From a virus, in the IMG/VR virus record IMGVR_UViG_3300036760_000522, positions 124,001 to 188,000 of that record: a DNA stretch of 64,000 nt; one strand, 5' to 3'. The position numbers and the translations under genes were made by a program. Positions within the stretch are counted from its first letter, which is position 1. Each line of letters opens with the position of its first letter. Positions 8,261 to 40,650 of the stretch are shown in pieces. The notes beneath the pieces were generated by a model. That model ran no database searches, was not told the DNA's origin, and worked only from the letters and a program-made list of their open reading frames with translations.

Positions 8261-8286
8261 AAATCTCAAACACGAAAGAACCCACC

Positions 8287-12089: not shown

Positions 12090-12210
12090 TCTCTCAACAT
12101 CTGACAGGTTCAAACTTGACTAAAGGCGCAAAGCTACCATTGAGTGGCGAGACTAACTCAGTCATTTCCTATTGGCAACTTCGAAGATCCGTCCTTTTTA
12201 AGACAAAGAT

Positions 12211-12621
12211 TCATTGAGCAAACGGCGGCTGTCCGCGAAAAGCTGTATAGAACGGAATGCTCGCAGCCATTTGGTTTATCTGTGACATCTCCTCGTCCCC
12301 TTGATACGTCGTTGGGAGACGCGGGGTCGTTGCGGCAAGTGTTCGCAAGTGAGCGTCGCTTGTCACCCGCAAAAGGTCTTCTCTCGCGTGCTCATCCCTC
12401 TGCAAAATGAAAACGATCATATCGTCATCCAGATTGTCGAGAGTACAGATCCCTCCGGTGCCGTCGGGGGCTATCCCTTCGACCCAAACGTTGTTGTTGC
12501 GGTCTAGGTCGCACTTCGTCGGCTGAGGACCTGGATCTTCTTCAGGAAGGCAACAATCAGTTGGGATCGAGTCTTCGAGCGTGGGTAACGTGTTGCAGTC
12601 TTCGAGCGTGGGTAGTGACAT
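12211..12621 (-). CDS. Hypothetical acidic protein with LPTLED repeat
   Basis: 136 residues with ATG at 12,621 and AGAGGA upstream. The N-terminus carries a tandem LPTLED-CNT-LPTLEDS duplication encoded by a 17-bp direct repeat (12,571-12,587 and 12,598-12,614). A Cys/acid region follows (DCCLPEEDPGPQPTKCDLDR), and the C-terminus is mixed. It diverges from the amidase gene. Function unknown. Confidence 0.5.
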   Translation of the reverse strand: MSLPTLEDCNTLPTLEDSIPTDCCLPEEDPGPQPTKCDLDRNNNVWVEGIAPDGTGGICTLDNLDDDMIVFILQRDEHAREDLLRVTSDAHLRTLAATTPRLPTTYQGDEEMSQINQMAASIPFYTAFRGQPPFAQ

Positions 12622-20317: not shown

Positions 20318-20906
20318 GGCGAACTCTCTCACCGATCTTGTGCAGCAAAGCGTTGAGAGATTTTTTGGCTTCCTCGTAGCTCAAAGTCCCGTGTCGAACA
20401 GCGTAATCGATGCGATCCAATACGATGCCAGCAGCTGCGTAGCTCTTGAAGTTGTCGGTCCGAAGAAAATCGTCTCGCGTGCTACACAACCTAGTCTCTA
20501 CTTGCATCTGAAACTCTGACCACGACTCGTGTCGGCGATCAGAGACCTCTTTTACGGCATCGACACCTTCAGGAACTGGAGGTGTCGGGATCTGGTAGGC
20601 ACGCTCAATTTCCGAAAGGGTTTTCCCAAATGGCTGCTCTGAATCGTTGAACTTTCTCCAAAGAGCAATGACGTCCCAACGCTCTCGACAGACGAAACAC
20701 CAGGCTCCGCTGGGCCCCCCTGAAGACGTAAGATAGACTCGGGCACTCGGCTTCTCGTCCTTACCGTGAAAGGGACAAGAGATCTGCTCTTCCTTGTCGT
20801 GGCTTGAAAGCTTGATGCCGTGTTGGCGCAGAACGCTGTGCACAGACACTTGGTCATGAATTTTCGCAACCCGTTGTTTGTACCAAGCACGAAGTTCGTC
20901 ACTCAC
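20286..20906 (-). CDS. Primase-type CHC2 zinc-finger protein lacking a TOPRIM domain
   Basis: 206 residues from GTG 20,906, which overlaps the helicase stop (GTGA). Residues 15-85 match the DnaG zinc-binding domain: VSVHSVLRQHGI, ISCPFHGKDEKPSARVYL and GAWCFVCRERWDVIALW give the C-x2-H ... C-x2-C site. The rest is helical and has no TOPRIM or RNA-polymerase motifs. In DnaG this finger reads the template start site, so this may be a recognition subunit for a catalytic primase outside the window, or a repurposed regulator. Confidence 0.8.
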   Translation of the reverse strand: MSDELRAWYKQRVAKIHDQVSVHSVLRQHGIKLSSHDKEEQISCPFHGKDEKPSARVYLTSSGGPSGAWCFVCRERWDVIALWRKFNDSEQPFGKTLSEIERAYQIPTPPVPEGVDAVKEVSDRRHESWSEFQMQVETRLCSTRDDFLRTDNFKSYAAAGIVLDRIDYAVRHGTLSYEEAKKSLNALLHKIGERVRHGPASQNPDT

Positions 20907-23662
20907 AGTCCAGCCTCATTCAACAGTCGCAAATCCTCTTTGGTCAGCTCCTTGTTGTTGAAGGATTCCTGTCCTTCCAGGTTGCGCAACCTTCGAGCGT
21001 TCGCGAAGTCGACCTTCACCTTAATCTTGCTGAACAAGTCGTTGTCGCGGTTCTTAAGATTGCAAAAAATAGTCTCTCCTGCTGCCCGTAAGGAGTCGCA
21101 CAAATACGTCGTCGTCACGTAATCCGCGGAGCGTTCTGCCTCATTGGCATAAGACAAATTGCTGAACCGATACACACCCTCCTTCTCGGTCCCTTCCTGC
21201 TTGTCCGCTGCGTCTTTGCCCTGACGGTTGATCTGGTGCAACAACAAAACCGGTAAGCCAGTCCCCCCATTGAAATGTAGGGCAAGGAGCTTAGCGTCAA
21301 CAATTACTGTGTTGTGCTCAACAGTGTAGTCCTTGTGTGCCCGAGCAGCTTTGACAAGACCACTATGATCGACGACCAGTAGCCCAACATCCATCGATCG
21401 ATGAACGGACTCCGCATACACACGAATGTCATCGACACCGACTTTGCGATCAGGTGAATAGACCCGAATCTTGTGGTATTCAGGATTGTTCTCGAGATCG
21501 TGTAGGGCTTCTTTGTAGAAGGCTTCTTCCTCCCTAGTCAAGTCTCCGTCACGTACCTTGCGATAGTCCAAGGGTTGTCGACCCTGAGCTGTGAACTTCC
21601 CGTTGGATGTGTGCATCACAGCCAGTAGACGTCGCAAATGCTCGTACCGCATTTCGAGGCTGACGTACAGGCTGTGTGTGCGATAGCGTGTCGCCAGGTT
21701 GTAACACCAATTGATCGCAAAACTCGAATTGTGAGTGATAATGTCATTCGCTACGAAAGTGCGGTGCACAGGCACTGATAGGTCATAGGTCATTTCAACG
21801 CCCATTGAATTAACACTCTTGACACAATCCCAGTAAATATCGCCTGTGCTCACGCCAAATTTTTCAGCGACATCCGAGGTAACCGTGGGATTGTTTCTCG
21901 AGGCTGTACGAGCATACCTCCAATGTCCATTGATCTTAATGCGACGTCCATCTGGCAATAGACTAGAAGGCACAGGAGTCGAGTCTATTTTAGGTAGACG
22001 CGAAAGGAGTCGAGAAAATTTAGCCTCTTTGCCTACAATCCGAACTTTTTCACAGAACAACCGTTTGCTTGGATTGGTGACTATTCGGACAGTCCAGAAA
22101 CGATATGGGCGGTCCTCTACCTTTGTATTAACGAAAGTAACCGTTGATTTTATACCTAGACGTAGCAGCAGAGACTGTATGTCCTCACAAAGCTCTCTAC
22201 ACACGGACGAATAGGTGATGATGTGACTGGACTGCTTAGCACCTGTTCCGTCTTTGTTGATTCGATCCTTTCGAACGTAGTCGTCGGTGCAACAGGATCC
22301 GTTTGTTGACCACAAGGCTCCCAACAGAGCCGCGACAAGATCCTCGCTCATTCCAAAAAACTCACTTGGAATCCGCTTGTTGTAAGAGTCCGTCCCGTAA
22401 AGACCGAGCTGCTCTAAAAGAAGCCGAAGTGGAGAAACCGTACGATGCCACCGATCACCTAAACCGTGAGCAACTCGAACATACGGAACACGTTGGCCGC
22501 CCTGAGGAACATTTAGAGAAAACCAAGGATTTTCATAGTCGGGCTCTCCTTCTATGTAACCAAGGTCTCTCAAACAAGTAACGAAATCACACAAAATGGG
22601 CCCGTCTTGTTGTGTGAAGTTGATGCATTGTCCGATCGCACCGTCCCCGATGAGATAGCCAACCAATTTGACCTCTGAGAGCGAGTACGGTCGTGCCCCC
22701 ACAGCCCTCATGACTTTGGGGGTCGCTACAAAGTCCCCTTCCTTCAATGACGACAACGACTCCCATCCGAAAGGAGTGAGAAATTTGTGATTGGAGGTGG
22801 CACCTATACGCCGGCCTGACACAAGTAACAGTTCAAATATTTCACGTCTTCCGTTCTGAACTAGATGTGAAGCCGGAGTTTGTACAAGTACTGGGCTTGC
22901 CCCTTCATTTTGGATCGCTGACACTACCGGCAAGTCGCCGCAGGCGTACAGCTCTGACAGGCGCCGACGTCGTTGGGTGCGGTGGTCAAATACTGTAGTG
23001 TCTCCTGCTAGGCATTTCAACTCTCCTGTCGCGGCAGCGTGAACCCACAGTTCTCCTTTCTTGATGCCATGGCACGTTTTGTCAATATGATCAATGCCTG
23101 TGAACTTCCCATAAGCCTTGTCTTTCTGTGACTTGGCATCTTGGTACTCTGTCCACACACGTTCCGTATCGTGTACGATGTCCCCTTCAATTTGAATGTT
23201 GTGGTCTCGAGGAACCTCCTCGTAGACGTGTTGGTTGAAGTACTGTAGCGCGTGTGTGACGCCTTTCAGCTGTGTCTTGCCTTCGACACGTCCCCTCGTG
23301 ATGATCTCTTCGACGTCACGTAGCAGTTTTCGAACCTTGTTCTGGGCCTGTTCCTCACGTAGCGTTCTGAGTAGCGTGCCGTAGTTACTACGAGTGTAGG
23401 CTTCGACTGTTTTGATGTCGGCAAGTTTTTCGACAACCGTTATTTCGTTATTTCGTTCGAAGTAATCTCGAATCGACGCCCAGTCCGGAGGTTCCAGATT
23501 CTGTTGAACGTACTCCTGTACGTAGGTCCAGATCTTGGTTTCATCAGGGTTGTGCCACTCAAACCCTGATCTCAATAGACGACGATAGTTGCCGTCTATT
23601 TGCTCAATCGTGAGCTTAGCATCCCCAAAATCGATGATGCCCCGTAAAAGCCGTTTGGACAT
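20903..23662 (-). CDS. dnaB: DnaB-type replicative helicase interrupted by an intein
   Basis: 919 residues before splicing. Extein N (1-216) is a helical N-domain leading into GKFTGIDHIDKTCHGIKKGELW and AAATGELK. The intein occupies 217-645. Extein C starts SSFAINWCYNLATRYRTHSLYVSLEM and continues with LLVVDHSGL (Walker B) and VLLLHQINRQGK (motif H3/H4). The spliced Walker A reads A-A-A-T-G-E-L-K-S-S, with Leu where Gly is usual. It should unwind the fork as a hexamer. The stop overlaps the primase-like gene. Confidence 0.9.
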   Translation of the reverse strand: MSKRLLRGIIDFGDAKLTIEQIDGNYRRLLRSGFEWHNPDETKIWTYVQEYVQQNLEPPDWASIRDYFERNNEITVVEKLADIKTVEAYTRSNYGTLLRTLREEQAQNKVRKLLRDVEEIITRGRVEGKTQLKGVTHALQYFNQHVYEEVPRDHNIQIEGDIVHDTERVWTEYQDAKSQKDKAYGKFTGIDHIDKTCHGIKKGELWVHAAATGELKCLAGDTTVFDHRTQRRRRLSELYACGDLPVVSAIQNEGASPVLVQTPASHLVQNGRREIFELLLVSGRRIGATSNHKFLTPFGWESLSSLKEGDFVATPKVMRAVGARPYSLSEVKLVGYLIGDGAIGQCINFTQQDGPILCDFVTCLRDLGYIEGEPDYENPWFSLNVPQGGQRVPYVRVAHGLGDRWHRTVSPLRLLLEQLGLYGTDSYNKRIPSEFFGMSEDLVAALLGALWSTNGSCCTDDYVRKDRINKDGTGAKQSSHIITYSSVCRELCEDIQSLLLRLGIKSTVTFVNTKVEDRPYRFWTVRIVTNPSKRLFCEKVRIVGKEAKFSRLLSRLPKIDSTPVPSSLLPDGRRIKINGHWRYARTASRNNPTVTSDVAEKFGVSTGDIYWDCVKSVNSMGVEMTYDLSVPVHRTFVANDIITHNSSFAINWCYNLATRYRTHSLYVSLEMRYEHLRRLLAVMHTSNGKFTAQGRQPLDYRKVRDGDLTREEEAFYKEALHDLENNPEYHKIRVYSPDRKVGVDDIRVYAESVHRSMDVGLLVVDHSGLVKAARAHKDYTVEHNTVIVDAKLLALHFNGGTGLPVLLLHQINRQGKDAADKQEGTEKEGVYRFSNLSYANEAERSADYVTTTYLCDSLRAAGETIFCNLKNRDNDLFSKIKVKVDFANARRLRNLEGQESFNNKELTKEDLRLLNEAGL
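21728..23014 (-). other. Intein with LAGLIDADG-type endonuclease domain
   Basis: 429 residues (217-645 of the helicase precursor). Block A is CLAGDTTVFD with Cys1, block B GATSNHKFLTPFGW, block F VRIVTNPSKRLFCEK, block G VANDIITHN followed by Ser+1. All splicing residues are present. Endonuclease motif C is LVGYLIGDGAI with its Asp, but motif E reads LLGALWSTNGSC, with Asn where the second catalytic Asp belongs. It should splice but may no longer cut. The insertion is at the Walker A Lys-Ser, a known hotspot. Confidence 0.92.
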
Positions 23663-28445: not shown

Positions 28446-28487
28446 ATCCCTAACGAGACAACAAGTGGACTAGGACAGACCGTCAAT

Positions 28488-28898
28488 CTAAACTGGAACA
28501 CCGACAGGCATTGATCGTCGTTCGTCCCCTAGAATTTCGTGACGCCATGATTTGGGGCGACGTCGTTCAGAGCGATTGTCGATGTAGGGAATGTAAGTAG
28601 ATCCTTCTGCTTTCAGTTGCCGAACAACTCCGCGAAGCGTTTCAACCGATTCCTGTATTTCGAGCGTTCCGTTACCTGCCCTGTAATGAAGTTTTTGAGG
28701 GGCAGTCGGACGCGATTTGACACGCGTCCTTCTCAGCCGACCTCGCAGCTTCTCATAGTGCACGTTCTCTAGGCGAGCGAGATCTGCCAGACTTTGCCAC
28801 CGCCCCATCCACGGCACCCAAAAAGTCGTTCGCTTCCGGTTGTTGAACCGTTCGTGTTGAGTCCACACACAATTATTGACGTGATATCCACGACTCGG
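28488..28898 (-). pseudogene. 3' half of an HNH/AP2-type phage endonuclease gene split by the 8.66-kb element
   Basis: This 134-residue segment carries the family's C-terminal half: GYHVNNCVWTQHERFNNRKRT, then MGRWQSLADLARLENVHYEKLRGRLRR in pieces. The reading frame enters from the inserted element and has no natural start. Joined to 37,557-37,934 after removing 28,899-37,556 and one 9-bp duplication, it makes an uninterrupted 259-codon gene. Its own product, if any, would be inactive. Confidence 0.85.
28890..28898. repeat. 9-bp target duplication, left copy
   Basis: ACGACTCGG, repeated exactly at 37,557-37,565 on the far side of the element. Confidence 0.85.
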
Positions 28899-28909
28899 GG
28901 CTTTGCCTG
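28899..28909. repeat. Left terminal inverted repeat
   Basis: GGCTTTGCCTG, the exact reverse complement of 37,546-37,556. CGGGCAG-type motifs follow at about 28,940 and 28,957, including the palindrome CTGCCGGGCAG. Confidence 0.85.
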
Positions 28910-29023
28910 AGAAAGGGCCGACCGACATGAGTTGTCGGGCAGTCTTGGGTTCTGCCGGGCAGCCGGTGTGCCACCTGAAAGAAAGGCCTCAGCATACGTC
29001 ACTAGGCCTTGAGCCGCGGGCGA

Positions 29024-29344
29024 CTATTCGCTGCGCGTCGTGGGGTGAGCCTGAATCCGGCCCTCCGCTACACACTCCTGTCGCCAGGCTTCATGTTGAC
29101 GATGCCTCCACTCAGTTTCTGCGATTCGTCGAGCCTCTTGCCCCTCTGGGGTTGCATGGAATCGCTCGGCTACGTGGTCCATCATTGCCTCATCGACCTT
29201 CTTGGTTCCCGTCTCCGCCCACTCGAACGCTCGTTGTATCCCGTCACAATCAAGTCCGGAACGAGCCAGCAGCAGTCCGACAAGGTGGCGGAGTTCCTTG
29301 ACCGTCTGAACGAGGTTGTCCGAGTGAATTGGGTCTAGTGTCAT
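29024..29344 (-). CDS. Hypothetical helical protein (element cargo)
   Basis: Start at ATG 29,344 (MTLDPIHSDNLVQTVKEL); the longer upstream frame is Cys/Arg-rich and less plausible. About 106 residues, charged helices (FEWAETGTKKVDEAMMDHV, then ARRIAETEWRHRQHEAWRQEC split). No family recognised. Confidence 0.45.
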   Translation of the reverse strand: MTLDPIHSDNLVQTVKELRHLVGLLLARSGLDCDGIQRAFEWAETGTKKVDEAMMDHVAERFHATPEGQEARRIAETEWRHRQHEAWRQECVAEGRIQAHPTTRSE

Positions 29345-29636
29345 TATCCAAACTGACCGCCACATCTGAAGCCTGTCAACCCGTGGACAGCCAACTGCGC
29401 CAGAGTGGAACAACCAATCCTGCGCTGAGATGCGTCTAGGGCCGCACAGGGTGTGTTGGCAGGCGTGGCACAGCGTGAGTCTGACGGAAGCTGTCACAGC
29501 GAACGAAGACCGGGATGGTGAGGAGAAATGCCCTTCTTCGTGACCGGGACACGCCCGCTCCACGACCAGTGCTCGTTCAAGAGCAGTTGGTACGTCCCAT
29601 CGCGCTTTTTGGAGAAAAGCGGGTAGTTGAGCAGGC
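29345..29636. other. Gap without a clear gene
   Basis: About 290 bases between element genes. Two minus-strand frames pass through it, but neither has a good start nor a recognisable domain. A CHACQHTLCG segment resembles a zinc finger and may be a decayed gene. Confidence 0.3.
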
Positions 29637-30077
29637 TCAATCGACGAGATCTTGGTACCGATGCTTCCCGTTCTCCGCGAGAACCAAGATGAACCCGTGA
29701 CGCTTGGTCCAAAGTTTGTGTTCGATTAACGCTCGTGAGATGAGCGTGACCGTTGTGTTCTTCGCCGGATCGGAGGTCGGATCGACGGACTCGAGCTTAT
29801 CAAGTGAGACGATTCCGTAGTCATACGATGATGCGTCGTAGATAAAGTCCTCGGCGCTCTTGGTCACGAAAATCCGGCCCGGCAGAAGCTCGGACTTGAT
29901 CACGTCATCGGTCATTCCAGGCCGAGGAACGATAACTCGGATGTTCGCCGCTCGAAGAGGCACAGCGATGGTTTGCACATTTTCTTCGACAACGAGAACG
30001 CCCCGCGATGTCGCTTCGCGAGTTTGATCTTTGAAGCGATCCAAGATCCGATCGATGTCACCTTGTACGACGGTCAC
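29637..30077 (-). CDS. PIN-like (DUF5615/Mut7-C-type) protein
   Basis: 146 residues from GTG 30,077. The pattern VLVVEENVQTIAVPLRAANIRV, shown here in part as EENVQTIAVPL, then GRIFVTKSAEDF, matches the DUF5615 PIN-like layout of an acidic first strand, an Arg-helix and a T-K/D-x-D-F motif. VEEN replaces the usual V-D-E-N. Members are candidate RNases in toxin or defence loci. It sits 59 bases downstream of the type IIG gene on the same strand and could be an accessory to it. Function inferred from fold. Confidence 0.55.
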   Translation of the reverse strand: MTVVQGDIDRILDRFKDQTREATSRGVLVVEENVQTIAVPLRAANIRVIVPRPGMTDDVIKSELLPGRIFVTKSAEDFIYDASSYDYGIVSLDKLESVDPTSDPAKNTTVTLISRALIEHKLWTKRHGFILVLAENGKHRYQDLVD

Positions 30078-30135
30078 CTAGAAGCGATACCACGCGAAAC
30101 GGGAGGCAGCCGCTGATCATGCCCAAAAAGTGAGG

Positions 30136-33100
30136 TTACGCAGTCTCGCGACGGGGCGGAGGCCGCGTGGAGACTTTGACGATGTTGGGGCCGATGCTCC
30201 TCTCGCCTGTGGTTCGCGCAACGGCCTTCCACTGTCGATGCTTGCCGTTGAAGCTCACCGCCATGCCCAATGCCTCCAGTGTTTCCAATGCAGGGACAAC
30301 TGCGTCCGCCGAAGCGCCAATGTACAACGCAGCGACATCATTGGCTGTTAGGGCCTCGCTGCTAGCTACGATGAAATCTCGAATCGCCGCGACCTGCTGC
30401 GGCAACTCCATTGGCCACGGCAACTGAAGCTGGTGTTCTGGCGCCTCTGGCACACGCACAGCCCGAGGAACGGCCCCCTTTGCTTCTTGGAAAGCAGGTC
30501 GCAGCCAACGAACCGTTCCGGACGACTCCTCGGCGGTGCGCACTTGATTCAGAGTGAGTAGTTTCTCCAGAACGATGTCGTCAGAGAGCCCTCCTGACCA
30601 ACCATAGGCACTACATACGGCCTCATCGAGGTCTGAATGAAGCCTCTGTAGGCCCGAGACCAAGCCCTGGTCGTAGCTCAGTCTCTCTTTGTCCGTCAGC
30701 GGTTCACCAGACCGGAGCTTCTCGAGCACATTGTACATTGCAGTGATCGTTAGCTGCGGGTGTGCGGCCTGCTGGCGCCTGCGATGGCCATCAAGTTGTT
30801 CACCCAGATCGCGAATGCACTGTCGCTGTGTCTCCGTGGCGGACGGGAAAGGAAAAGTCTCAAAGCAGCGCGTCTTATTGTAGCGAGGCCGATCCTCGAG
30901 GGTTCCACCAGCGGCTAACGCCCACGCAACATGTATCCGACTGGATAGAACACCGAGTACATATGCGTCGTCGGCTGCTATGTTCACGAGCATGTTATCC
31001 GGAAGCACGGCTTCGTCGAGGAAAACGAACACTCGGTGCTTGGCTGTTTCGACCGTCGCAATGAAACGTGAGAGCCCAACAAGTGCGGGGCGAAAGGCAC
31101 TCCGAGGCTCGCCGTGTATCCACCAGTTGTCGCGGTAGACTGCTCGTCTATTTTGGTCTCTCTCCGGTTTGACCGTGTCGTGGATGTGTTGAAACACTTC
31201 CGGGAAGCGTTTTTGGACTTGCCCGAGGGTTAGGCCAAACAAGTCGATGACCCAGACTCCTCGAGGAGTCTGGGTCACGTCACGCCCATTTCGGTACTCG
31301 CGAATGTGCCGTTCGAGTCCTTCTTTTCGACCCAACCCGAGCTGTTCTGCTTTGTCCGGCCTGACGACAAATCCCGAGCCGTGGAGCTTAACACCAGGGC
31401 AGCTCAAGGCTTCATTGGAGCGAAGCGGAGCCGCACTCGAAACGTCTGCTCCGACTGAGAGATCGGCAGAGATAGTGCCGATGCGTGTGGCGAGTTCAAT
31501 AGTGGCACCGAGGCTCCCCTGGTTAGACTCGCATTGGACCGACAGCAGTCGACCAGCATGAATTCCGGCTTGGCCAACCGTCATGGAGATTCGTACCGCG
31601 GCACCATCCGCAGAGTCGACCCAAGGATGGTCTGGGATGGCGAAGACCAATGATAGTGGCTCCTTGTCGCTCAGGTGGGTTCTGACAACTCTGCGGTTGA
31701 AGGTCTGCCGCAGGCTGTTGGTAGCAATGAATCCGAATCGCCTTGCACGCCCTGCACGAACGAGTTCTGCGGCCTTGTGCCACCAGTACATCACGTAGTC
31801 ACACGACTCGGGAAGCTCCGGGTAAGCGTCGCGGATGGTTTCAGCATAGCCCTCCCCAAGTGTCCCGCGCATTCGTCCATTGCCCACGAATGGGGGGTTC
31901 CCTACGATGAAATCCGCGGCTGGCCAGTCAGCCCTCCTTGGGTTGATATACCGAACAACAGGCACCTGCGCCGTTTCATCTGGGACCTCGTCGCCGGTCA
32001 CATGGCTCTTCTTCATCGTCTCGCCGTCCCAAAAGGTCAGCAATGCGCCTGTGTGCTCATTGCGAGCTTCTTCTTCATGATCGTAAGCGAGCACCGCATC
32101 TCTGCATTCGATATTCTTGTCGTCCCTCAGGATTGGTTCTGGAGGTGTTTTTGACTGCCCGTACATCTTGTGATGCCATTGCAGGTAGCCGATCCACAGA
32201 ACCAGCTCGGCGATCTCCTTCGACCCACGACGGGCCTCGATACCTTTGAACTGTCGAGGCGTCACCATCATGTTTTCGCCCAGTTCCTGTTGCTTCATAC
32301 CCAGGTCGAAAAGCGTCGCCAGGACCTCGCTTTCCAAACGCTTGAAAAGGTTGAGCGCAACATAGAGAAAATTTGCAGATCCACAGGCCGGGTCGAGCAC
32401 GGTCGTGTTGCAGAGCTTCTCCAAAAATTCTCGAACAACGGACTGAGCTTCGTTTACTCTCTTTGGCGGCGAGAACTCGCCCGGTGGCACTAGCTGTCGA
32501 ACCCTGACTCGTACGATGTCCCATTCGGCGCGCAGTGGTTCCTCGATGGTCGGAACAAGCAAACGCTCTACGTACGAAGTCGGAGTAAAATGCGCGCCCA
32601 ACTTGTGACGCTCCTTCGGATCCAGGGCTCGCTCAATAAGCGTGCCAAAAATCGCTGGCTGCACGTCACACCACTCGCGCTTGGCTGCTTTGAGCAATAT
32701 TCTCAATTGCGTTGCCTCAAGGGGTAACGCCTCCGGATCCGCGAAAAGTCCACCATTGAACTGCAAGAGCTTTCCGAGAATGAAGAAGCTTTTCCCAGAA
32801 TTCATCGCGTCCCAAAGTGCCTCGACACCAGTCTTGAACGATGACGGATCCGGAATCCATGTTTTCTCCAAAGCGGTGGTGAACACCTTTTCTCGCAAAA
32901 GACCGATATCTTCGGCAAACATTGTGAAGACGCACCGCATCAGAAACCTCGCCACGACCTCGGACGAGTAACTGGTTTTTTCGAGTTCGCCAGCGAGGAC
33001 GGCAAGGTCGGTTGCAATTTCGCGAGTCACCTCCTCAGACTTGCGTGCCGGGTCGAGACTGCGAGGGTCAAGCCAGATCGCCCGCAAACAGTCAGAATGG

Positions 33101-33654
33101 TTTGCCAGGTCACTCAGGAAGATGCGGTTCTTCTGGTTATTCGGATAGGCGTGGTAGGCCCCACTGCCGTCAAAGCACGCGAACAGATCGAAACAGTACC
33201 CGATGTCGGTGACGATCACGAATGGGGGTGGCTGCGCCACGCCTTTCGTGTAGCGAAGAGCCTGACCTTGGGCAGCGTTCATTGCCGAACTCCAGCCTGG
33301 AGTTCCTCGTACTGCGGTTCCCTTCTTTTTACTGCCCTTGTTGGACCCCTGCTTGGCCTCCAACACGAAGCACCCCTGTTTGTACAGATCCATCAAGCCA
33401 GATTTTTGACCGTCGTGTTCGTGAATGACAGCGTCGGCTTCGAAGACGTAGACGTCCTGTTCTGGATCGCCCGTCTTTGCGTTGGGCTCCGGAACGCCGA
33501 GGGCTCTGCACAAATCTTTGCAGAAGCTATCCTTGTTTGCGCGTTCACTGCCCTCGCTGTGTTGCCAGCGGGCTATGAAGTCGTCGATTGGCACTAGTGT
33601 ATCGCTTTCGGCGATTGGTGGCCCACGCAGACGAACCAGTCCGTCAGACTGCAT
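30136..33654 (-). CDS. Type IIG (MmeI-like) restriction-methyltransferase fusion
   Basis: 1,172 residues from ATG 33,654. The N-terminus has a PD-(D/E)xK nuclease, Asp89 ... Glu99-Ala-Lys101, with the D-x9-ExK spacing of MmeI. GAHFTPTSYVERLLVPTIEE leads to SAM motif I DPACGSANFLYVAL and catalytic motif IV NPPFVGNG. The C-terminal third (from RPDKAEQLGLGRKEG onward) should be target recognition. One protein can methylate adenine in one strand and cut nearby. It would defend the carrier against competing DNA or mark its own. A second C-terminal helical part resembles regulatory HTH (LPQQVAAIRDFI). Confidence 0.88.
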   Translation of the reverse strand: MQSDGLVRLRGPPIAESDTLVPIDDFIARWQHSEGSERANKDSFCKDLCRALGVPEPNAKTGDPEQDVYVFEADAVIHEHDGQKSGLMDLYKQGCFVLEAKQGSNKGSKKKGTAVRGTPGWSSAMNAAQGQALRYTKGVAQPPPFVIVTDIGYCFDLFACFDGSGAYHAYPNNQKNRIFLSDLANHSDCLRAIWLDPRSLDPARKSEEVTREIATDLAVLAGELEKTSYSSEVVARFLMRCVFTMFAEDIGLLREKVFTTALEKTWIPDPSSFKTGVEALWDAMNSGKSFFILGKLLQFNGGLFADPEALPLEATQLRILLKAAKREWCDVQPAIFGTLIERALDPKERHKLGAHFTPTSYVERLLVPTIEEPLRAEWDIVRVRVRQLVPPGEFSPPKRVNEAQSVVREFLEKLCNTTVLDPACGSANFLYVALNLFKRLESEVLATLFDLGMKQQELGENMMVTPRQFKGIEARRGSKEIAELVLWIGYLQWHHKMYGQSKTPPEPILRDDKNIECRDAVLAYDHEEEARNEHTGALLTFWDGETMKKSHVTGDEVPDETAQVPVVRYINPRRADWPAADFIVGNPPFVGNGRMRGTLGEGYAETIRDAYPELPESCDYVMYWWHKAAELVRAGRARRFGFIATNSLRQTFNRRVVRTHLSDKEPLSLVFAIPDHPWVDSADGAAVRISMTVGQAGIHAGRLLSVQCESNQGSLGATIELATRIGTISADLSVGADVSSAAPLRSNEALSCPGVKLHGSGFVVRPDKAEQLGLGRKEGLERHIREYRNGRDVTQTPRGVWVIDLFGLTLGQVQKRFPEVFQHIHDTVKPERDQNRRAVYRDNWWIHGEPRSAFRPALVGLSRFIATVETAKHRVFVFLDEAVLPDNMLVNIAADDAYVLGVLSSRIHVAWALAAGGTLEDRPRYNKTRCFETFPFPSATETQRQCIRDLGEQLDGHRRRQQAAHPQLTITAMYNVLEKLRSGEPLTDKERLSYDQGLVSGLQRLHSDLDEAVCSAYGWSGGLSDDIVLEKLLTLNQVRTAEESSGTVRWLRPAFQEAKGAVPRAVRVPEAPEHQLQLPWPMELPQQVAAIRDFIVASSEALTANDVAALYIGASADAVVPALETLEALGMAVSFNGKHRQWKAVARTTGERSIGPNIVKVSTRPPPRRETA
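31248..31277. repeat. 30-bp perfect palindrome inside the type IIG gene
   Basis: TGACCCAGACTCCTC (31,248-31,262) is followed directly by its exact reverse complement (31,263-31,277). It encodes the conserved-looking DVTQTPRGVWV stretch, so the two strands encode nearly the same peptide. Confidence 0.8.
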
Positions 33655-33867
33655 CTCATGGTGGTATTGTCCCCCTTGCCAGGCTGCGTTGTGCCGCTCG
33701 ACAGCACAACGGTCACTTGTTGTTGTTAATATCTCGCCTCAGTACGGATCATGGCCCACGGCGGTTTAGCCTTTTGGAATGAGTCGAAGAAGGTGAACGG
33801 AGCGTCAATGTCCTGACGGTCCGTGTCCTTTCGACAGACCATTGTCGTCGGTCACACCACGCGGGAT
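33655..33867. promoter_or_regulatory. Non-coding gap upstream of the type IIG gene
   Basis: 213 bases with no convincing gene. The promoter of the type IIG gene should lie here, in the AT-richer part near 33,715-33,740. I cannot assign boxes reliably. Confidence 0.3.
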
Positions 33868-34077
33868 TTAGAAATGGAATATTGCCGACGGCAGCGCACT
33901 CAGAGCCTCGTCGAGTTCGTCGCCGGATCCGTCAATCCCTGGTACCAATGGACTTTGTGAGAGCGTGGCGCGTGCTGCCACCGCATAGTTTGGCGGGTGC
34001 GAGAACAGGAGAGTCCGCTCAAACTTGCATGGTTCGAGCGAAGCACCGCTCCGGCACACTGCCGCCTCTTCAAACAC
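33868..34077 (-). CDS. Hypothetical small protein (element cargo)
   Basis: If started at GTG 34,077, five bases upstream of the previous gene's stop, the product is 69 residues (FEEAAVCRSGASLEPCKF, then LVPGIDGSGDELDEALSALP). Longer starts overlap the upstream gene heavily. No family recognised; translation uncertain. Confidence 0.35.
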   Translation of the reverse strand: MFEEAAVCRSGASLEPCKFERTLLFSHPPNYAVAARATLSQSPLVPGIDGSGDELDEALSALPSAIFHF

Positions 34078-34459
34078 GTTCAATGAGACAGAAGACGTCC
34101 CCGGAATCCAGCTCGCCTCTCCAATGGCGCAAAAGAACATCTCGGTTCTTAATGATGAACGGAACAACTTGCCTTTGGATTTTACCCGGCAACGTTCCAA
34201 GAATTCGCGACGGATTCGTGATCGTTACCGAGACGGAGGTATCGAGTCCTTCGGTCGTGGTCTCCTCACCAAGCACGACTTTGACCCTCGGACCGTGTTG
34301 AGAATCTGTTCCCCCGAATTCTCCAGGAGAGACCCAAATGGCGGCTCCCTGCACCCCAGTTCGTTTTGGGAGCAGGTTGGTCATGGCTTCCATGAGGATG
34401 CTCGGTTCTTCGAATCGCGAAGCAGTTCGTTGGAAATCACGCATGAAGAAGTTTTGCAC
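34070..34459 (-). CDS. Hypothetical protein (element cargo)
   Basis: 129 residues from GTG 34,459 or ATG 34,444. The chain has a central strand region (AAIWVSPGEFGG, then PRVKVVLGEET) and ends with NRDVLLRHWRGELDSGDVF, reminiscent of the W-containing tail of DUF4160-type proteins. That likeness is weak. It may form an operon with the genes at 34,569-35,050. Confidence 0.45.
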   Translation of the reverse strand: MQNFFMRDFQRTASRFEEPSILMEAMTNLLPKRTGVQGAAIWVSPGEFGGTDSQHGPRVKVVLGEETTTEGLDTSVSVTITNPSRILGTLPGKIQRQVVPFIIKNRDVLLRHWRGELDSGDVFCLIERV

Positions 34460-34568
34460 GACGGGAAGGAACTTTTGGTCTTCCGGCGTATCGTTTCCCG
34501 GCCGTACACGGCACGTCGCCGTTGAGCTACCGTGATCGACTGGGCAGTCTCTGCCCTCACGGCCTCAA

Positions 34569-34799
34569 TCAGAACAACAGCCGCTGCACCTCTTGCTCGA
34601 CTTCCGCCTCCGTCTTCATCGGTACCAACAAACAAACGTCCTGAATGGCCAGAGATACAGCCAACTGCCCTGCCTGATCGTATGGGCGTTCGAACATGCG
34701 GAGTCGAGCAGGAGCGATGTAGTCCCGATCCGTGAATTTTGTCCCCGACGCGGCCTTGCCGTAGGCTCGCACGTAGATGCTGTAGGTTTTGCCTTTCAT
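34569..34799 (-). CDS. Hypothetical protein (element cargo)
   Basis: 76 residues from ATG 34,799, which overlaps the stop of the upstream gene (ATGA). It starts MKGKTYSIYVRAYGKAASG and contains a compact alpha/beta part. The tight coupling with 34,796-35,050 suggests partners of one complex or a toxin-antitoxin-like pair. No family recognised. Confidence 0.55.
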   Translation of the reverse strand: MKGKTYSIYVRAYGKAASGTKFTDRDYIAPARLRMFERPYDQAGQLAVSLAIQDVCLLVPMKTEAEVEQEVQRLLF

Positions 34800-35050
34800 G
34801 AAGCGCGTTTCCTGCGATCGTGTCGTCCCTGCCGCAGACCTCGAGCTAGCGACACGGCACAAACTTGGTCGACCAGCTCGAACAGAAGCTCGTTCGTGAC
34901 CTCTTCGATGACCAAGTAGAGCTGAAACTGCGGGAGACTCACGGCTCGCCTGAGGCGCGCCTGGTGCCTCGTGAGCCTCTTCGCGAGCTGCTGAAGCTTC
35001 GGGCTCGTCGCGAGTAGGTGATCTGTGAGGTCGGGGGGTGCCTCGGACAT
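34796..35050 (-). CDS. Hypothetical helical protein (element cargo)
   Basis: 84 residues from ATG 35,050. Basic and helical (LQQLAKRLTRHQARLRRAVS), then an acidic amphipathic helix (VIEEVTNELLFELVDQV) and a basic tail GRHDRRKRAS. Its promoter region is shared with the divergent XRE gene, so the XRE protein probably controls it. Confidence 0.5.
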   Translation of the reverse strand: MSEAPPDLTDHLLATSPKLQQLAKRLTRHQARLRRAVSLPQFQLYLVIEEVTNELLFELVDQVCAVSLARGLRQGRHDRRKRAS

Positions 35051-35088
35051 TTGGCTTCCCCGAGTTCACACCAGGTCGCCGTTCATTT

Positions 35089-35102
35089 CAACCTATAAGT
35101 TG
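35089..35102. promoter_or_regulatory. Operator-like palindrome between divergent element genes
   Basis: CAAC-CTATAA-GTTG, a dyad of 4-bp arms spaced by six bases, in the 89-base gap between the divergent 35,050 and XRE genes. TATAAG could be a -10 box. The position is typical of an XRE autoregulatory operator. Confidence 0.4.
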
Positions 35103-35139
35103 GTTTTAATTGGGTCCTCGATACCGCGAGCCTGCGGGT

Positions 35140-35412
35140 GTGACGAAACAGAAGGCCGATGAACTAGGGCACAACGTTGGAAGGAGGGTCGCTGAAATAC
35201 GGCAGAAAAACGGCCTGACGCAGCAGGGGCTAGCGACCTCAGTTCGGGCGACCGTCCAGTGGATTAGCCGAATCGAGAATGGTGAGGAAAACCTGACCCT
35301 CGCGACGCTTGTGAAATTGGCCAACGCGTTGTCCGTGACGGTCAGGGAGCTGTTTGAGGAGCCAGCCTCCAATCCCAAGGAGGTTCGGCGCGGGAGACCA
35401 CGAAAGGGCTGA
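35140..35412 (+). CDS. XRE-family regulator (helix-turn-helix)
   Basis: Start chosen at GTG 35,140 (VTKQKADELG); a TTG at 35,110 is possible. Residues 14-65 are a Cro/C1-type HTH: VGRRVAEIRQKNGLTQQGLA, then VRATVQWISRIENGEENLTL in two pieces, and NALSVTVRELF. The tail is basic (VRRGRPRKG, AT-hook-like). It should bind DNA as a dimer and repress its own and the divergent promoter, a standard control for restriction-modification or toxin cargo. Whether it controls the type IIG gene is unknown. Confidence 0.85.
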   Translation: MTKQKADELGHNVGRRVAEIRQKNGLTQQGLATSVRATVQWISRIENGEENLTLATLVKLANALSVTVRELFEEPASNPKEVRRGRPRKG

Positions 35413-35509
35413 CCCCCAGAGTTTTCTGGTGCACCTGAAGGGGCTCGTTCGAAGTCCGCTATTCCACTTCTGAAATCCGCCACAGAAGGTGGCCCCCCAG
35501 TGCTGACGA

Positions 35510-36025
35510 TTGGAGTTGTGCGGAATTTTGGAGGACACCCACGTTTCTGGCAGAACGGGAGTTGTGGCCGATCCACTTCCCGCAGAGGCAGTGCTCGAAC
35601 AGGCAGCCCGGCTCCTCAAGGTGGCCACGGATATTCTGTCCAATCTCAAGCCCCAAGGGGACGAGCAACGTGGAAAAACCGCGGGGCCGTTACAAATCGC
35701 GGGGCGACTGTACCTGAGCCTCACTGCAATCCTTGCCCTTTCAGCAACCGGATGGTCGTACCTCTTCAAAGGCACGGAAGGGGCAACATGTTCAACGGTG
35801 GTAGCTACACTGAGATGGTTGCTCGTGGCCGCAATCTTTCTAGGCATCACGGGGATTCTGTGGCTCGTAGCTCACCTGACACGCAAACACGTGTCACTGC
35901 TTTCTGGTCCCGGTGAATATTCATCCACGGTCCACGAGGCCTTGATGAGTAAGGGAGACCCGTTGGGGAGCGGCCCACCTGACTCTGTCACACAACTTCC
36001 GGGACCTGCTGGTACTTCGAAGTGA
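35510..36025 (+). CDS. Two-transmembrane protein (element cargo)
   Basis: Up to 171 residues; the start is uncertain (TTG 35,510, or GTG near 35,564). Two hydrophobic helices, LYLSLTAILALSATGWSYL and WLLVAAIFLGITGILWLVAHL (the latter split by a short loop), then a soluble tail of about 45 residues. Its stop overlaps the GTG of the next gene (GTGA). Two-TM effectors paired with a small sensor are common in abortive infection loci; that role is inference. Confidence 0.55.
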   Translation: MELCGILEDTHVSGRTGVVADPLPAEAVLEQAARLLKVATDILSNLKPQGDEQRGKTAGPLQIAGRLYLSLTAILALSATGWSYLFKGTEGATCSTVVATLRWLLVAAIFLGITGILWLVAHLTRKHVSLLSGPGEYSSTVHEALMSKGDPLGSGPPDSVTQLPGPAGTSK

Positions 36026-36303
36026 TCTACTTGGTCACATTGCAGCGAAGTCCCCCTAGAGTGATGCCGGGATTTACCGATCAATTGGCAGAGAGTTCTG
36101 AGTTTCATCGAAAGATCATGGACAACGTGTGGGTCGTCGACACTTGGTTCGGTAGTCGGGATCTCACAGAAGTACTTCGAGTGCATCTGGGTCCAGCTGA
36201 TCAGCTTTTGGTGATACGAGTACACGACGATTACTTCGGATGGATGCGTCAGGACGTATGGAAGTGGTTGCGAGCCGCTTCAAGCTATCGAAGATTCGAC
36301 TGA
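36022..36303 (+). CDS. Cas2/SinR-like small protein (element cargo)
   Basis: 93 residues, GTG start coupled to the upstream 2-TM gene. The pattern MIYLVTLQRSPPR, NVWVVDTWFGSRDLTEVLRVHL in pieces, DQLLVIRVHDDYFGWM and DVWKWL resembles the SinR-type ferredoxin-like proteins related to Cas2. Those have an initial YLV strand, a W-x-V-x-T strand, an L-L-V-I strand and a terminal GW-x5-WxW. No nuclease residues are obvious. It may be the sensor or inhibitor of the 2-TM protein. Family resemblance only. Confidence 0.5.
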   Translation: MIYLVTLQRSPPRVMPGFTDQLAESSEFHRKIMDNVWVVDTWFGSRDLTEVLRVHLGPADQLLVIRVHDDYFGWMRQDVWKWLRAASSYRRFD

Positions 36304-36568
36304 GCCATTGATTTGGTGAGGTCGGCGCCAATACAGTTTCGGGCGATCCTCCAATTGCTCACAACACCTTCTTTGGTGGCGCCGGCCGGGAAGGGAATGG
36401 GATGATCTTCGCAGAAGGCCCTGATCGATTAGACCGATCATCCTGTTCGTTCCCGTTCGCGACTTTGAGCAGATTCAAAACAGACGCCGAATACCGGACT
36501 ACCTTCGCGGCCCCTGGGTATCCTGGCTCCTGTTTCTTGGCTTACGGGAATCCGAAAAGTAGGGTGAG

Positions 36569-36596
36569 CCCGCCCGAGGTTTGATTACCGGGCGGG
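36569..36596. repeat. 8-bp GC hairpin
   Basis: CCCGCCCG and CGGGCGGG with a 12-nt loop. No T run follows. Confidence 0.65.
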
Positions 36597-36760
36597 GACA
36601 CGCTTTCGACTAGGCGTGGCTCATGCCACCTACGGTCCGCCACCAACGAAGGTGCCGAATCAGCGGGCACATGAATCCCTCACGCAAGTGCTTGTAATGC
36701 ACAGCGTTTTCCTCTGCGGACATTCGTCGCCGCTGACGGGCCTTGACACGACTCCCACGC

Positions 36761-36809
36761 GGGCGTTAAAGTCCGCCTGCGTCAGGTGTTGGCTGGACTT
36801 TGAGCGCCC
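36761..36809. repeat. Long imperfect hairpin
   Basis: Arms 36,761-36,777 and 36,791-36,809 pair over about 15 positions, with one bulged G and two G-U pairs. The outer sequences CTGACGGGC/GCCCGTCAG can form a competing stem, so two structures are possible. Confidence 0.6.
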
Positions 36810-36856
36810 GTCAGGGCCGCTTTTGGGACGTGACACGGCCTATATGGCCCCAAAGA

Positions 36857-36885
36857 CCCCGTGGTGCTTTAACACCTGGGGTTTT
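36857..36885. terminator. Bidirectional intrinsic terminator
   Basis: CCCCGTGGTG-CTTTAA-CACCTGGGG followed by TTTT on the plus strand. It sits between the plus-strand operon ending at 36,303 and the minus-strand gene ending at 36,900, so it can serve both. Confidence 0.65.
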
Positions 36886-36899
36886 CGGCTATTTGGAGA

Positions 36900-37442
36900 T
36901 CAGTTCATCATGGCGGCGGCCTCCGGCGGGACGGGAATCTTCGAGAGTTCTACGAGCTTGGCGACGTTGACCTTGTAGCGGTTACCACCGAGACTATCGA
37001 TAACGCGGAGCGTCTTTAGTCTCGTCAGCTGGGCGTTTACTCGGTTCTTTGCCACCATCTTTTTGAGACCGGAGCCCCAAATGGCTTCGGCGGTGCACTG
37101 GTAGTCCAGCTCGGGGTTCTCCAAGAGCCGGAACGCGATTCGCCAACAGATGGGTGTGCTCGGCGGCAGGACGTATTCCTGTTGGGGCCGTAACTGGGTC
37201 GAGCCGTTGAGCCCTGGTGTCGGTTGTGACGAACCGTTTGTGGCCTGGATTGGGGGACAATCATCATCACAGCGGCCGTGGGCGATGACTTCTTGTAGGT
37301 GGGCCTCTGTCTTGGTCTCGACTTCCTTGGCCTTGATCAAGGCTTTGGTCAGGTCGGCGACGTTCTTTTTCGCCACGTCGAGAGCGTGAACAGCGTCGAT
37401 TACAAGGTCGACGCCTTCGTTTCTATGGGAAGTCTTGGCCAA
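36900..37442 (-). CDS. Coiled-coil/winged-helix protein at the right end of the element
   Basis: 180 residues from TTG 37,442. Residues 10-55 form a coiled coil (VIDAVHALDVAKKNVADLTK). A Gln/Pro/Gly-rich linker follows, then a winged-helix-like C-terminal domain (ICWRIAFRLLENPELDYQC, VAKNRVNAQLTRLKTLRVID, GGNRYKVN). It probably binds DNA. The gene is the closest to the right inverted repeat and its tandem subterminal repeats, so it may be an element-specific binding or mobilisation factor. That role is inference. Confidence 0.55.
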   Translation of the reverse strand: MAKTSHRNEGVDLVIDAVHALDVAKKNVADLTKALIKAKEVETKTEAHLQEVIAHGRCDDDCPPIQATNGSSQPTPGLNGSTQLRPQQEYVLPPSTPICWRIAFRLLENPELDYQCTAEAIWGSGLKKMVAKNRVNAQLTRLKTLRVIDSLGGNRYKVNVAKLVELSKIPVPPEAAAMMN

Positions 37443-37500
37443 GCCACCGCAGTCTACACAAGCGCAGGACCCTGTCTACACCGTCGTGTAAATCCAGACC

Positions 37501-37556
37501 GTTTTACCAGGCAGCTACACGATTTACCGGGCAGAGAGGTTTACACAGGCAAAGCC
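37501..37556. repeat. Three 20-bp tandem subterminal repeats at the right end
   Basis: Units begin at 37,501, 37,521 and about 37,540. Each has a TTTAC core followed by C/A-rich sequence and GGCA (TTTACCAGGCAG, TTTACCGGGCAG, TTTACACAGGCA). The last overlaps the terminal repeat. TCTACAC-type sequences continue inward (about 37,452-37,490). Such repeats are typical protein-binding sites at transposon ends. Confidence 0.55.
37546..37556. repeat. Right terminal inverted repeat
   Basis: CAGGCAAAGCC, exact reverse complement of 28,899-28,909. Confidence 0.85.
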
Positions 37557-37565
37557 ACGACTCGG
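37557..37565. repeat. 9-bp target duplication, right copy
   Basis: ACGACTCGG, identical to 28,890-28,898; the right inverted repeat ends immediately before it. Confidence 0.85.
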
Positions 37566-37934
37566 ATGTAAGCGTCCTAGCATCTTGCCAACCGGACAAG
37601 GTCCCATGTCCGCCAGGAATTCTTCGAACACTTGCCACCGAGGGTCTACTCGAACTCCTCGCTTCTCAGCAAAATAGCGCATGTGCGCCCAAGACTGGTA
37701 CGTGCTGTTTTGACAGCTCCCTCTACGGGCACAGCCGTGTCGTATGTGGCGTCCACGTCCACTGAAACGACAACCACAGCCCTTGCTGAGACCTGCACAC
37801 AAACTGTCAACTTGGACACCTCGCTGTATGCCACAAGCGCAGTGACATTTGACGTACAGTTTGCGGCCTCGCTTATACGGTGGCGACATCACGACCCAAT
37901 GGCCAAACGTCACGCCTCGTTTGATCGAGACCAT
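37557..37934 (-). pseudogene. 5' half of the split HNH/AP2-type endonuclease gene
   Basis: Start at ATG 37,934; a GTG at 37,970 with AAGGAGG just upstream is an alternative. The 126 codons hold the family's N-terminal half: GVTFGHWVV, CHCACG, LCAGLSKGCGC, STYQSWAHMRYF, EEFLADMGPCPVGKMLGRL. Without the element the frame continues from PSRG straight into the 28,889-28,488 half. In the present state it runs into the element and stops after LSAR. The family includes homing-type HNH nucleases of phages. Confidence 0.85.
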
Positions 37935-37977
37935 CTTGGCCTCTGTTCCGATTATGACTTTTCTGCGCACCCTTCCT

Positions 37978-38008
37978 CCTTCAATTCCCAGTCCGATCTG
38001 ATCTCTAC
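37978..38008. repeat. Dispersed 31-bp element, copy 2
   Basis: Matches 922-951 (28 of 31 columns). Lies between the divergent split endonuclease and the lipoprotein gene. On the minus strand it merges with a Shine-Dalgarno sequence; on the plus strand it is placed like a promoter of the lipoprotein. Confidence 0.6.
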
Positions 38009-38091
38009 CCCAAATCAGCACTTTCATTTTCAAGTTTTGAGCGGTCTCAACCGTATTTAGCTACGCCATGGTACACGACCGAAAAACCTGT

Positions 38092-40650
38092 ATGTCCAGA
38101 TTTGGCACATTACTCGCGATCTTGCTTGTTGTCGCAGGTTGCGGAGAAAGCCTCTACGGACCTAAACAAATTGATATACCGGGCTCCGCCCCTATCCCGC
38201 CCGAACCCGAAACCCCCTCCATCACAGCGAGTTCGGGAGGCTCTCAAAGTGGAACGGATCCCACCGCACTTGAGCCAGACGCGGGTGCCGATAACCTAGG
38301 CGGTTCTGGTGGATCTGGTGGCAGCTCCTCTAGTGGCGGGACCGCAGGAGTGACTGGCGGCGGCGGAAATAGTGCAGCCGGTGCACCCAACACGACATTT
38401 TGCGACCCGGCCACTACACAGTGCAACGGTTCCGCATTTGAAACATGCCGCCAAGATGGCTCGGAATGGATCCCAACCGAAACTTGTCCGTTCGCCTGTG
38501 ACGACGAATTCGGGTGCATCGGCGAGTGCGTCCCCGAAGATGCCCGCTGTACGCTCAACTTAGGGGAACACGAGATCTGCGACGCCTTCGGTCAATGGTC
38601 GACTGAATCATGCCCCTTCGGCTGCGAAAACGGTGCGTGTACGGGCGTATGTGTGCCTGGGACCAACGCGTGTCTGCAAATTCCCGACCTGACCATGACC
38701 CTGATCACTGCCTTGTGTGACGGACAAGGGTCCTTTGTCCAGACCGACATTTGTGACTTCGTGTGCAAAGAGGAATCGGGCGTAGCCTACTGTACCGGGG
38801 AGTGCGTCCCCGGAACCAAGCGATGTGCCGGAGGGCCGGCCGTCGAGCTCTGCGACTCGGACGGCGAGTGGATCCCCGACGCCGACTGTGAATTCGCTTG
38901 CGAGGGTGACGGCGTCTGTGCCGGAACCTGTGAGCCAGGGACGATGCGTTGTTCTGGGCTCGGAATCGAATCCTGTGACACCCAGGGGGCTTGGCAACCT
39001 GCTACGACGACTTGCCCCTATGCCTGCCTGAACGGAGCTTGCACGGGCAACTGTGTGCCCGGAACCCTACGTTGCAACGGCTCTGCGACCGAGACTTGCG
39101 ACACCTTGGGAGAATGGGGATCGACCGTCTCGTGTCCGGTCGATCCTAACACGGCGCCAATCTGCTCAGGAGCCGGCATCTGTGGCACTGCCTGCACTTC
39201 TGGCTTCGCTGACTGCACAGCTGCTCCGGGATGTGAAACCACACTTGGGTCGTCGACCAACTGTGCCGCCTGTGACGACGCGTGCACGGCGACACCCGAG
39301 AACGCTGATCCAATTTGTGTCGGCGCCGTCGAGGGCTGTGGATTCACGTGCATCCAAGGTTTCGCCGACTGTACGGCCGACCCTGGATGTGAAACGAACA
39401 CCCAGAACGACGAAACGAACTGCGGCGTGTGTGGGCTCGCGTGCAACGGTGGCCAGTGTTTCAACGGCGCCTGCGAGTACCCGGGAATCGAACCAATTGC
39501 GGTCCATCCAGGAGGAAATAGCAGCGGGTGGGGTGACCGCATCGCTCAAGACGCGGACAACCTCTACACCTTCGAATACGACTACACCGAGAACCAAGTC
39601 ACTGTTCGAAAAATGCCCAAGAACGGGAGTGTGTCCGAAGTCATCACTAGCTTTGAATACTCGCCCCAAGCCGAGATCAGCATTGGAGTCGCTGATATGT
39701 TGTCAGCCGGACAACATTTGTACATCATCAAGCAGACGTACGTCGCATTTGTCGGCATCACGTCATCCGAGATCATTCGCTGTCCGACAACAACGCCTAA
39801 TCCGCTCGACTGCACACAAGTTTATAGCGGGACGGGGAGTTCACACCAACGCCTTGTGAAAAACTCGACACACGTCTATTGGCACAACGAGGACCAGGAA
39901 GGACCGTGCCTTGTGAATGGCAATGGGTGTGATCCGACGGGCTACCCGTTTAGGTCCGTAACGTTCTACCGCACATTGATCGATTCAGCATCGCCGTCAA
40001 ACGAACTTGTCTACTCCCTCTCAGGAACCTGGTTCGTGGAGCCAAAAATCGTCGTCGATGACGATTTCATTTACTACTGGCACGTCGAGAGAGGCACAGT
40101 AGCTCTCAATCAATATGTCTATCAAGCGTACCTGACGAAGCACTCGCTAGCTGAGCCAACGACAGCGCCCGAGAATGATATTGGATTGGCGGCTTTCGCC
40201 ACCTACATCAACGAGAATGGTTTCCTTGTCGAGGGCCGACCTCTGCACTACCCAGTCGATTTGATCAAGATGGAGTCGGGTCAGATCATTGCAACCTCCG
40301 ACAACAAATACTTCATCTTCGGTGCCTACCCCGAGGACACGACAGCCGAGCTGCTACACGTCGTGCAGTCCGTACAAAGCATCGTACCTACCGACGAATA
40401 CCTGTTCAACAAAGACGACCGAATCTACACACCCACTCAATGGCTGGATGTGAGAAACTTCACACGCGGCTACTGGACAACGTATCCGCACCAAGCTTAT
40501 GCGATCATGTCCGACGTTGCCGACGACGACTACGTGTACTTCCTGAGCTGGGGCTACTGGAACGAGTACCAATATCAGATAGATGGTCCTGACGTGGTGA
40601 CCCCTCAGACGCTTTATCGTGCCCCAGTGACTACGTACCAGGTGTTCTAG
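38092..40650 (+). CDS. Large Cys-rich lipoprotein with C-terminal propeller-like domain, host-type
   Basis: Start at ATG 38,092; the lipobox is VVAGC. A Pro/Gly/Ser linker (GGSGGSGGSSSSGG) follows, then about nine Cys-rich units with the pattern C-x-PG-x2-RC-x-G ... E-x-C-D ... G-x-W ... C-x3-C-x-G-x-C. The C-terminal 380 residues look like a strand-rich propeller (DADNLYTFEYDY, THVYWHNEDQE, DDFIYYWHVERG). This architecture is typical of secreted lipoproteins of Polyangia. In the phage it could be a transferred host gene that alters the cell surface or blocks receptors. Confidence 0.7.
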   Translation: MSRFGTLLAILLVVAGCGESLYGPKQIDIPGSAPIPPEPETPSITASSGGSQSGTDPTALEPDAGADNLGGSGGSGGSSSSGGTAGVTGGGGNSAAGAPNTTFCDPATTQCNGSAFETCRQDGSEWIPTETCPFACDDEFGCIGECVPEDARCTLNLGEHEICDAFGQWSTESCPFGCENGACTGVCVPGTNACLQIPDLTMTLITALCDGQGSFVQTDICDFVCKEESGVAYCTGECVPGTKRCAGGPAVELCDSDGEWIPDADCEFACEGDGVCAGTCEPGTMRCSGLGIESCDTQGAWQPATTTCPYACLNGACTGNCVPGTLRCNGSATETCDTLGEWGSTVSCPVDPNTAPICSGAGICGTACTSGFADCTAAPGCETTLGSSTNCAACDDACTATPENADPICVGAVEGCGFTCIQGFADCTADPGCETNTQNDETNCGVCGLACNGGQCFNGACEYPGIEPIAVHPGGNSSGWGDRIAQDADNLYTFEYDYTENQVTVRKMPKNGSVSEVITSFEYSPQAEISIGVADMLSAGQHLYIIKQTYVAFVGITSSEIIRCPTTTPNPLDCTQVYSGTGSSHQRLVKNSTHVYWHNEDQEGPCLVNGNGCDPTGYPFRSVTFYRTLIDSASPSNELVYSLSGTWFVEPKIVVDDDFIYYWHVERGTVALNQYVYQAYLTKHSLAEPTTAPENDIGLAAFATYINENGFLVEGRPLHYPVDLIKMESGQIIATSDNKYFIFGAYPEDTTAELLHVVQSVQSIVPTDEYLFNKDDRIYTPTQWLDVRNFTRGYWTTYPHQAYAIMSDVADDDYVYFLSWGYWNEYQYQIDGPDVVTPQTLYRAPVTTYQVF

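Follow-up and report, generated by a model that had tools for sequence, protein, structure and literature searches.

How a complete restriction-and-methylation enzyme came to lie inside an HNH endonuclease gene of a large phage, and what could have carried it there, is the question raised by this locus. The window, which is the whole 64-kb stretch of DNA analysed here, covers positions 124001-188000 of the 301,550-base IMG/VR virus record IMGVR_UViG_3300036760_000522, and the phage genes near the insertion include those for a DNA polymerase and for a DnaB-like helicase. The original prediction of an 8.66-kb element with 11-bp inverted ends and a 9-bp duplication was borne out to the base. The whole element occupies 28899-37556 (8658 bp), with 56.8% GC vs 53.5% in the remaining window. 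Its left terminal inverted repeat (TIR), GGCTTTGCCTG, lies at 28899-28909 on the plus strand, and the right TIR at 37546-37556 on the minus strand is a perfect inverted copy (11/11 bp). Both ends are bordered by the 9-bp target site duplication (TSD) ACGACTCGG, at 28890-28898 on the left and 37557-37565 on the right. The sequence GGCTTTGCCTG has exactly two copies in the window, where 0.02 are expected, and just two across the entire record, one per element end. A scan for any 11-bp inverted ends accompanied by a 9-bp direct repeat returned a single pair in the window, which is this element, and the same scan returned no pair in 60 Markov-1 randomisations of the window. These features support the view that the segment is discrete and mobile, bounded by TIRs and flanked by a TSD. 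Near the right end, two subterminal direct repeats TGCCYGGTAAA (Y being T or C) are located on the minus strand at 37503-37513 and 37523-37533. No other exact match to this motif occurs in the 301-kb record, and the two repeats are in line with the right-end TGCCTGTGTAAA and resemble additional, putative protein-binding sites.

The element separates the N-terminal part of the HNH gene (37566-38033) from its C-terminal part (28488-28898), both on the minus strand, and the machine-called open reading frame (ORF) of the C-terminal part begins within the element at 28928. The product of the interrupted gene matches PHROG 374 'HNH endonuclease' (E 5e-24), which places it in the HNH family, and shows about 34% identity to the HNH proteins of Acinetobacter phage AP22 and related phages; the homing type given to it in the original prediction is putative. 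When the element and one TSD copy were removed in silico, an open HNH frame of 301 codons from stop to stop was obtained, or 259 codons from an inner ATG, and its junction reads ...LHPSRG/YHVNNCVW; the proposed fusion of the two half-genes into a 259-codon frame with a conserved junction was reproduced by this deletion. Since the insertion point lies between PSRG and YHVNNCVW, neither half holds the complete motif, and the HNH protein is presumably inactive because its motif is split.

The empty site predicted by this deletion occurs naturally. The DNA polymerase scan of viral contigs yielded one relative, L009 (contig IMGVR_UViG_3300037424_001177, 159,228 bases), whose polymerase is 94% identical. 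Window positions 28726-28898 align to L009 2242-2070 and window positions 37555-39656 align to L009 2080-14, therefore both flanks of the element adjoin in L009. The target is present there as a single copy, CCGGCTCGG, with two substitutions relative to ACGACTCGG. The HNH gene of L009 is intact, with an open 254-codon frame reading ...LGRLHPSRGYHVNNCVW... across the insertion point, and this is the unbroken gene which had been suggested as a thing to look for in related phages. A search of the 159-kb record of L009 did not recover the type IIG enzyme carried by the element. Further scans with the helicase and with the HNH protein recovered no close relative besides L009, so the empty allele is represented by one genome, and no allele without the HNH gene was found. 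With L009, the in silico excision becomes a comparison between two natural alleles.

Other differences between the two phages were also observed. A 75-bp in-frame segment of the C-terminal HNH half (window 28651-28725) is absent from L009, and directly after its HNH gene L009 has some 345 bases (2404-2749) that include a short open frame, where the window has about 45 (28446-28490). The DnaB-like helicase gene (window 20903-23662) contains a 429-aa intein (21728-23014, minus strand) in its Walker A motif, with the borders GELK/C...HN/SSFAIN, and a LAGLIDADG-like stretch, GYLIGDGAI, was recognised in the intein by eye. The L009 helicase is free of the intein and reads GELKSSFAIN, which makes the intein a second mobile element separating the two phages. 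The alignment with L009 breaks at window 10817-12211, and 10817-12089 maps to L009 17775-18990 in the orientation opposite to its neighbours, which suggests that 10817-12089 is inverted relative to L009. A putative Ku-like protein gene, recognised by eye in the translation, is found at window 8218-9174.

The element encodes a protein of 1172 aa (30136-33654, minus strand), which the original prediction had described as a restriction enzyme, and this description is supported by its MmeI domains and its PADLOC type IIG match. The MmeI_N, hel, Mtase and TRD Pfam domains are all over the cut-off in one chain, the score against the PADLOC type IIG model is 1423 bits, and the solved MmeI structure 5HR4 is matched at 1e-40. 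The catalytic residues of MmeI are D70...E80-M81-K82, and MmeI enzymes have an invariant His in the AHYT segment and an invariant Trp in the aromatic box (PMC4833311). In the protein described here, the nuclease signature D89-x9-EAK, in which the motif begins at residue 89, is conserved with relatives, and both the invariant His and the invariant Trp are present in the alignment to MmeI, as LGAHFT and DHPW. Methylase motif IV is NPPF, as in the relatives. In motif I the protein reads DPACGSANFL, against GSGNFL or GTGNFL in nearly all relatives, although one (L024) also has GSAN; the methylase activity is not certain because motif I reads GSANFL. MmeI and this protein are alike in the MmeI_N, helical spacer, methylase and TRD domains, in D-x9-ExK and in NPPF, but MmeI has 919 aa vs 1172 aa here, and the GSANFL form of motif I is a difference. 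Judged by its domains and motifs, the protein is a member of the MmeI-type (type IIL/IIG) restriction-modification enzymes, which combine a PD-(D/E)XK nuclease, a helical spacer, a gamma-class N6 methylase and a TRD in a single chain.

The remaining cargo consists of short ORFs. A regulator of 100 aa (35110-35412, plus strand) is encoded divergently from the type IIG gene and matches Pfam HTH_3 (E 3e-12), and the regulator of the original prediction can accordingly be assigned to the XRE type; a homologue with 47% identity adjoins a type IIG gene in the deltaproteobacterial contig L040. Two of the proposed labels could not be confirmed. The 146-aa ORF at 29637-30077 (minus strand), whose frame is supported by codon usage, had been called PIN-like, yet it gave no match in Pfam, PHROG, NCBIfam, PADLOC or plasmids, and its AlphaFold model was unusable (pLDDT 35). 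The 93-aa protein at 36022-36303 (plus strand), the gene of which shares 4 bases with the one before it, had been called Cas2-like, yet its sole match is PHROG 1090, a family without assigned function, and its AlphaFold model is weak (pLDDT 47). That upstream gene, a 171-aa ORF (35510-36025, plus strand), has two hydrophobic stretches by eye and corresponds to the protein described as having two transmembrane segments; profile searches gave it no family match. A family match was also lacking for the minus-strand ORFs of 129 aa (34070-34459), whose frame codon usage supports, of 84 aa (34796-35050), for which the coding evidence is weak, and of 180 aa by the right end (36900-37442), the last of which had no relative in the viral contigs. 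No RNA family was found in the Rfam search.

The enzyme of the cassette is likely of bacterial origin, because such enzymes are common in bacteria and full-length in none of the phage records searched, and the GC content of the element is 57% vs 53.5% in the remaining window. Relatives of the enzyme were found at 39 loci of GTDB genomes (best 61% identity), in 30 of the 379 Myxococcota genomes (best 56%), and on 69 plasmids at a coverage of at least 80% with identities of about 50% or less. Five viral contigs hold relatives at 50-51%, and 50,697 phage records gave weak partial matches only, none of them covering 80%. Apart from the XRE homologue of L040, none of the type IIG relatives that were examined had the same ends, a flanking TIR and TSD or the same orphan genes. 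As to the host, a gene for an 860-aa cysteine-rich repeat protein of the CxPGTxRCxG type (window 38068-40650) adjoins the HNH gene. This protein is reminiscent of surface proteins of Myxococcota, and a myxobacterial host is only our guess from this neighbour.

Inverted ends together with a 9-bp TSD are the mark of a DDE transposase, yet no transposase or integrase domain was found in the element ORFs scanned outside the type IIG frame. The two transposase families tested, DDE_Tnp_1 and DDE_Tnp_1_5, were both absent from the 301-kb record; the IS903-type DDE transposase (PF13737), the model of which was positive in other genomes, was found neither in the element nor in the record. Of the original description as a mobile island, the discrete element with TIRs and a TSD stands, but the self-mobility which the word island suggests is unsupported, as no transposase or integrase was found. 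The ends were also searched for elsewhere by exact patterns, by which diverged ends would be missed: in IMG/VR, two patterns for the right end and one for the left gave five unpaired matches with no second end beside any of them, four unpaired matches were obtained in the 379 Myxococcota genomes, and nothing of use came from searching phages, plasmids and the literature for the right end or the TIR. The same termini around other cargo, which the original prediction had proposed to seek, did not appear in the IMG/VR, Myxococcota, phage and plasmid collections searched, and neither an autonomous partner nor a second copy bearing these ends was found in the collections searched.

As no recognised transposase is present, a passenger cassette moved in trans is the most economical account, as it is for mobile insertion cassettes. 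The element is probably such a transposase-less passenger cassette, the ends of which would be recognised by a DDE-type transposase acting in trans, most likely that of a host insertion sequence. According to this explanation, a bacterial MmeI-like enzyme would have been enclosed between short inverted ends along with its regulator and a small set of orphan genes, and the cassette would have entered while the phage was inside a bacterial cell, by a 9-bp staggered cut. The enzyme, if active, would mark phage and host DNA and cut unmarked competing DNA. An IS903-like transposase is one candidate for the enzyme in trans. IS903B, of the IS903 group in the IS5 family, is bounded by GGCTTTGTTGAATAAATC and duplicates 9 bp of its target (PMC10569121), and the element shares with it the first seven bases of the end (GGCTTTG) and the length of the duplication. 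Genomes of Myxococcota with IS903-type transposases have end-like sequences nearby, e.g., GGCTTTGTTGCATAAATA and GGCGTTGGTGCATGAATC, which are related to those of the element. On the other hand, only 11 of 18 end positions match IS903 on the left and 10 of 18 on the right, the others being different. The element gave no sign of a transposase, and the IS903-type loci in Myxococcota have other end sequences, with no insertion sequence bearing GGCTTTGCCTG ends among them. That the cassette was moved by a host IS903-like transposase and has ends of the IS903 group, a narrower form of the preferred explanation and compatible with it, is a possible but tentative reading.

Alternatively, the element could once have been a complete transposon whose own transposase was deleted or decayed, with the gene-poor stretch at 33.7-36.9 kb as the scar, and which was later moved, if at all, by a foreign transposase. 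Such a loss would agree with 33.7-35.1 kb, where there are short ORFs only and the coding signal is mixed, but no fragment of a transposase domain was detected in the scanned ORFs and the ends and the TSD remain perfect, and we consider this course of events unlikely. A self-mobile element, with a recombinase of an uncatalogued family among its orphan ORFs, for instance the 180-aa right-end protein, seems highly improbable: several ORFs are indeed without a family match and the right-end repeats resemble binding sites, but the plausible orphan genes all encode fewer than 200 aa, whereas DDE transposases usually have at least 300 aa. As the record derives from a metagenome and the cargo is bacterial in type, an assembly chimera, in which a bacterial fragment was joined to the phage contig with no insertion at all, was also considered. 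A chimera would not yield perfect TIRs, a 9-bp TSD and flanks that adjoin exactly in a separate contig; it is scarcely credible and was rejected on account of the exact empty site in L009. A composite transposon was rejected because no insertion sequence copies are present at either end of the element.

The element, together with the natural empty site, offers a base-exact snapshot of how a large phage genome gained a complete restriction-and-methylation enzyme with no recognisable mobility gene of its own, and indicates that bacterial defence genes can reach phages as passenger cassettes. It provides a concrete case for the question of how phages acquire defence genes and an example of a phage HNH gene lost through insertion, and the ends of the element may serve as a probe for the missing transposase. 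A bolder extension would be that cassettes of this kind form a family with an unseen transposase partner and regularly ride large phages, which would thus gain restriction enzymes from bacteria through transposition and deploy them against competitors; we regard this as quite unlikely.

Among known systems, a mobile insertion cassette is composed of one or more passenger genes between transposon-like inverted ends, without a transposase and with a target duplication; MIC231 of Bacillus cereus has IS231A as its partner, and mic-qnrD is a plasmid-borne cassette of 1.5 kb (PMC3913671). The element described here resembles MIC231, mic-qnrD and mic-qnrS2 in its inverted ends, its passengers, its TSD and the lack of any transposase found, but it is 8.7 kb long as compared to the 1.5 kb of mic-qnrD, is phage-borne, carries a restriction enzyme and has no partner found so far. 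In mobile restriction-modification units (Furuta, Abe and Kobayashi 2010, as cited in PMC3031569), restriction-modification genes move as discrete units associated with repeats and insertion sequences; the movement of PaeR7I is likewise linked to insertion sequences. The movement of such genes as a discrete unit is common to both, but these known cases are in bacterial genomes and plasmids, whereas here a single-chain MmeI-type enzyme resides in a phage for which the empty site is known. The chromosomal island I55, which has a tyrosine integrase and type II restriction-modification cargo, is transduced by a jumbo phage (PMC12595487). Type II defence cargo moved by large phages is the shared feature in this comparison, but the present element sits inside the phage genome and has TIRs and a TSD. 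Both transposase-less passenger cassettes and mobile restriction-modification units are known kinds of element, and it is the carrier that is unusual here.
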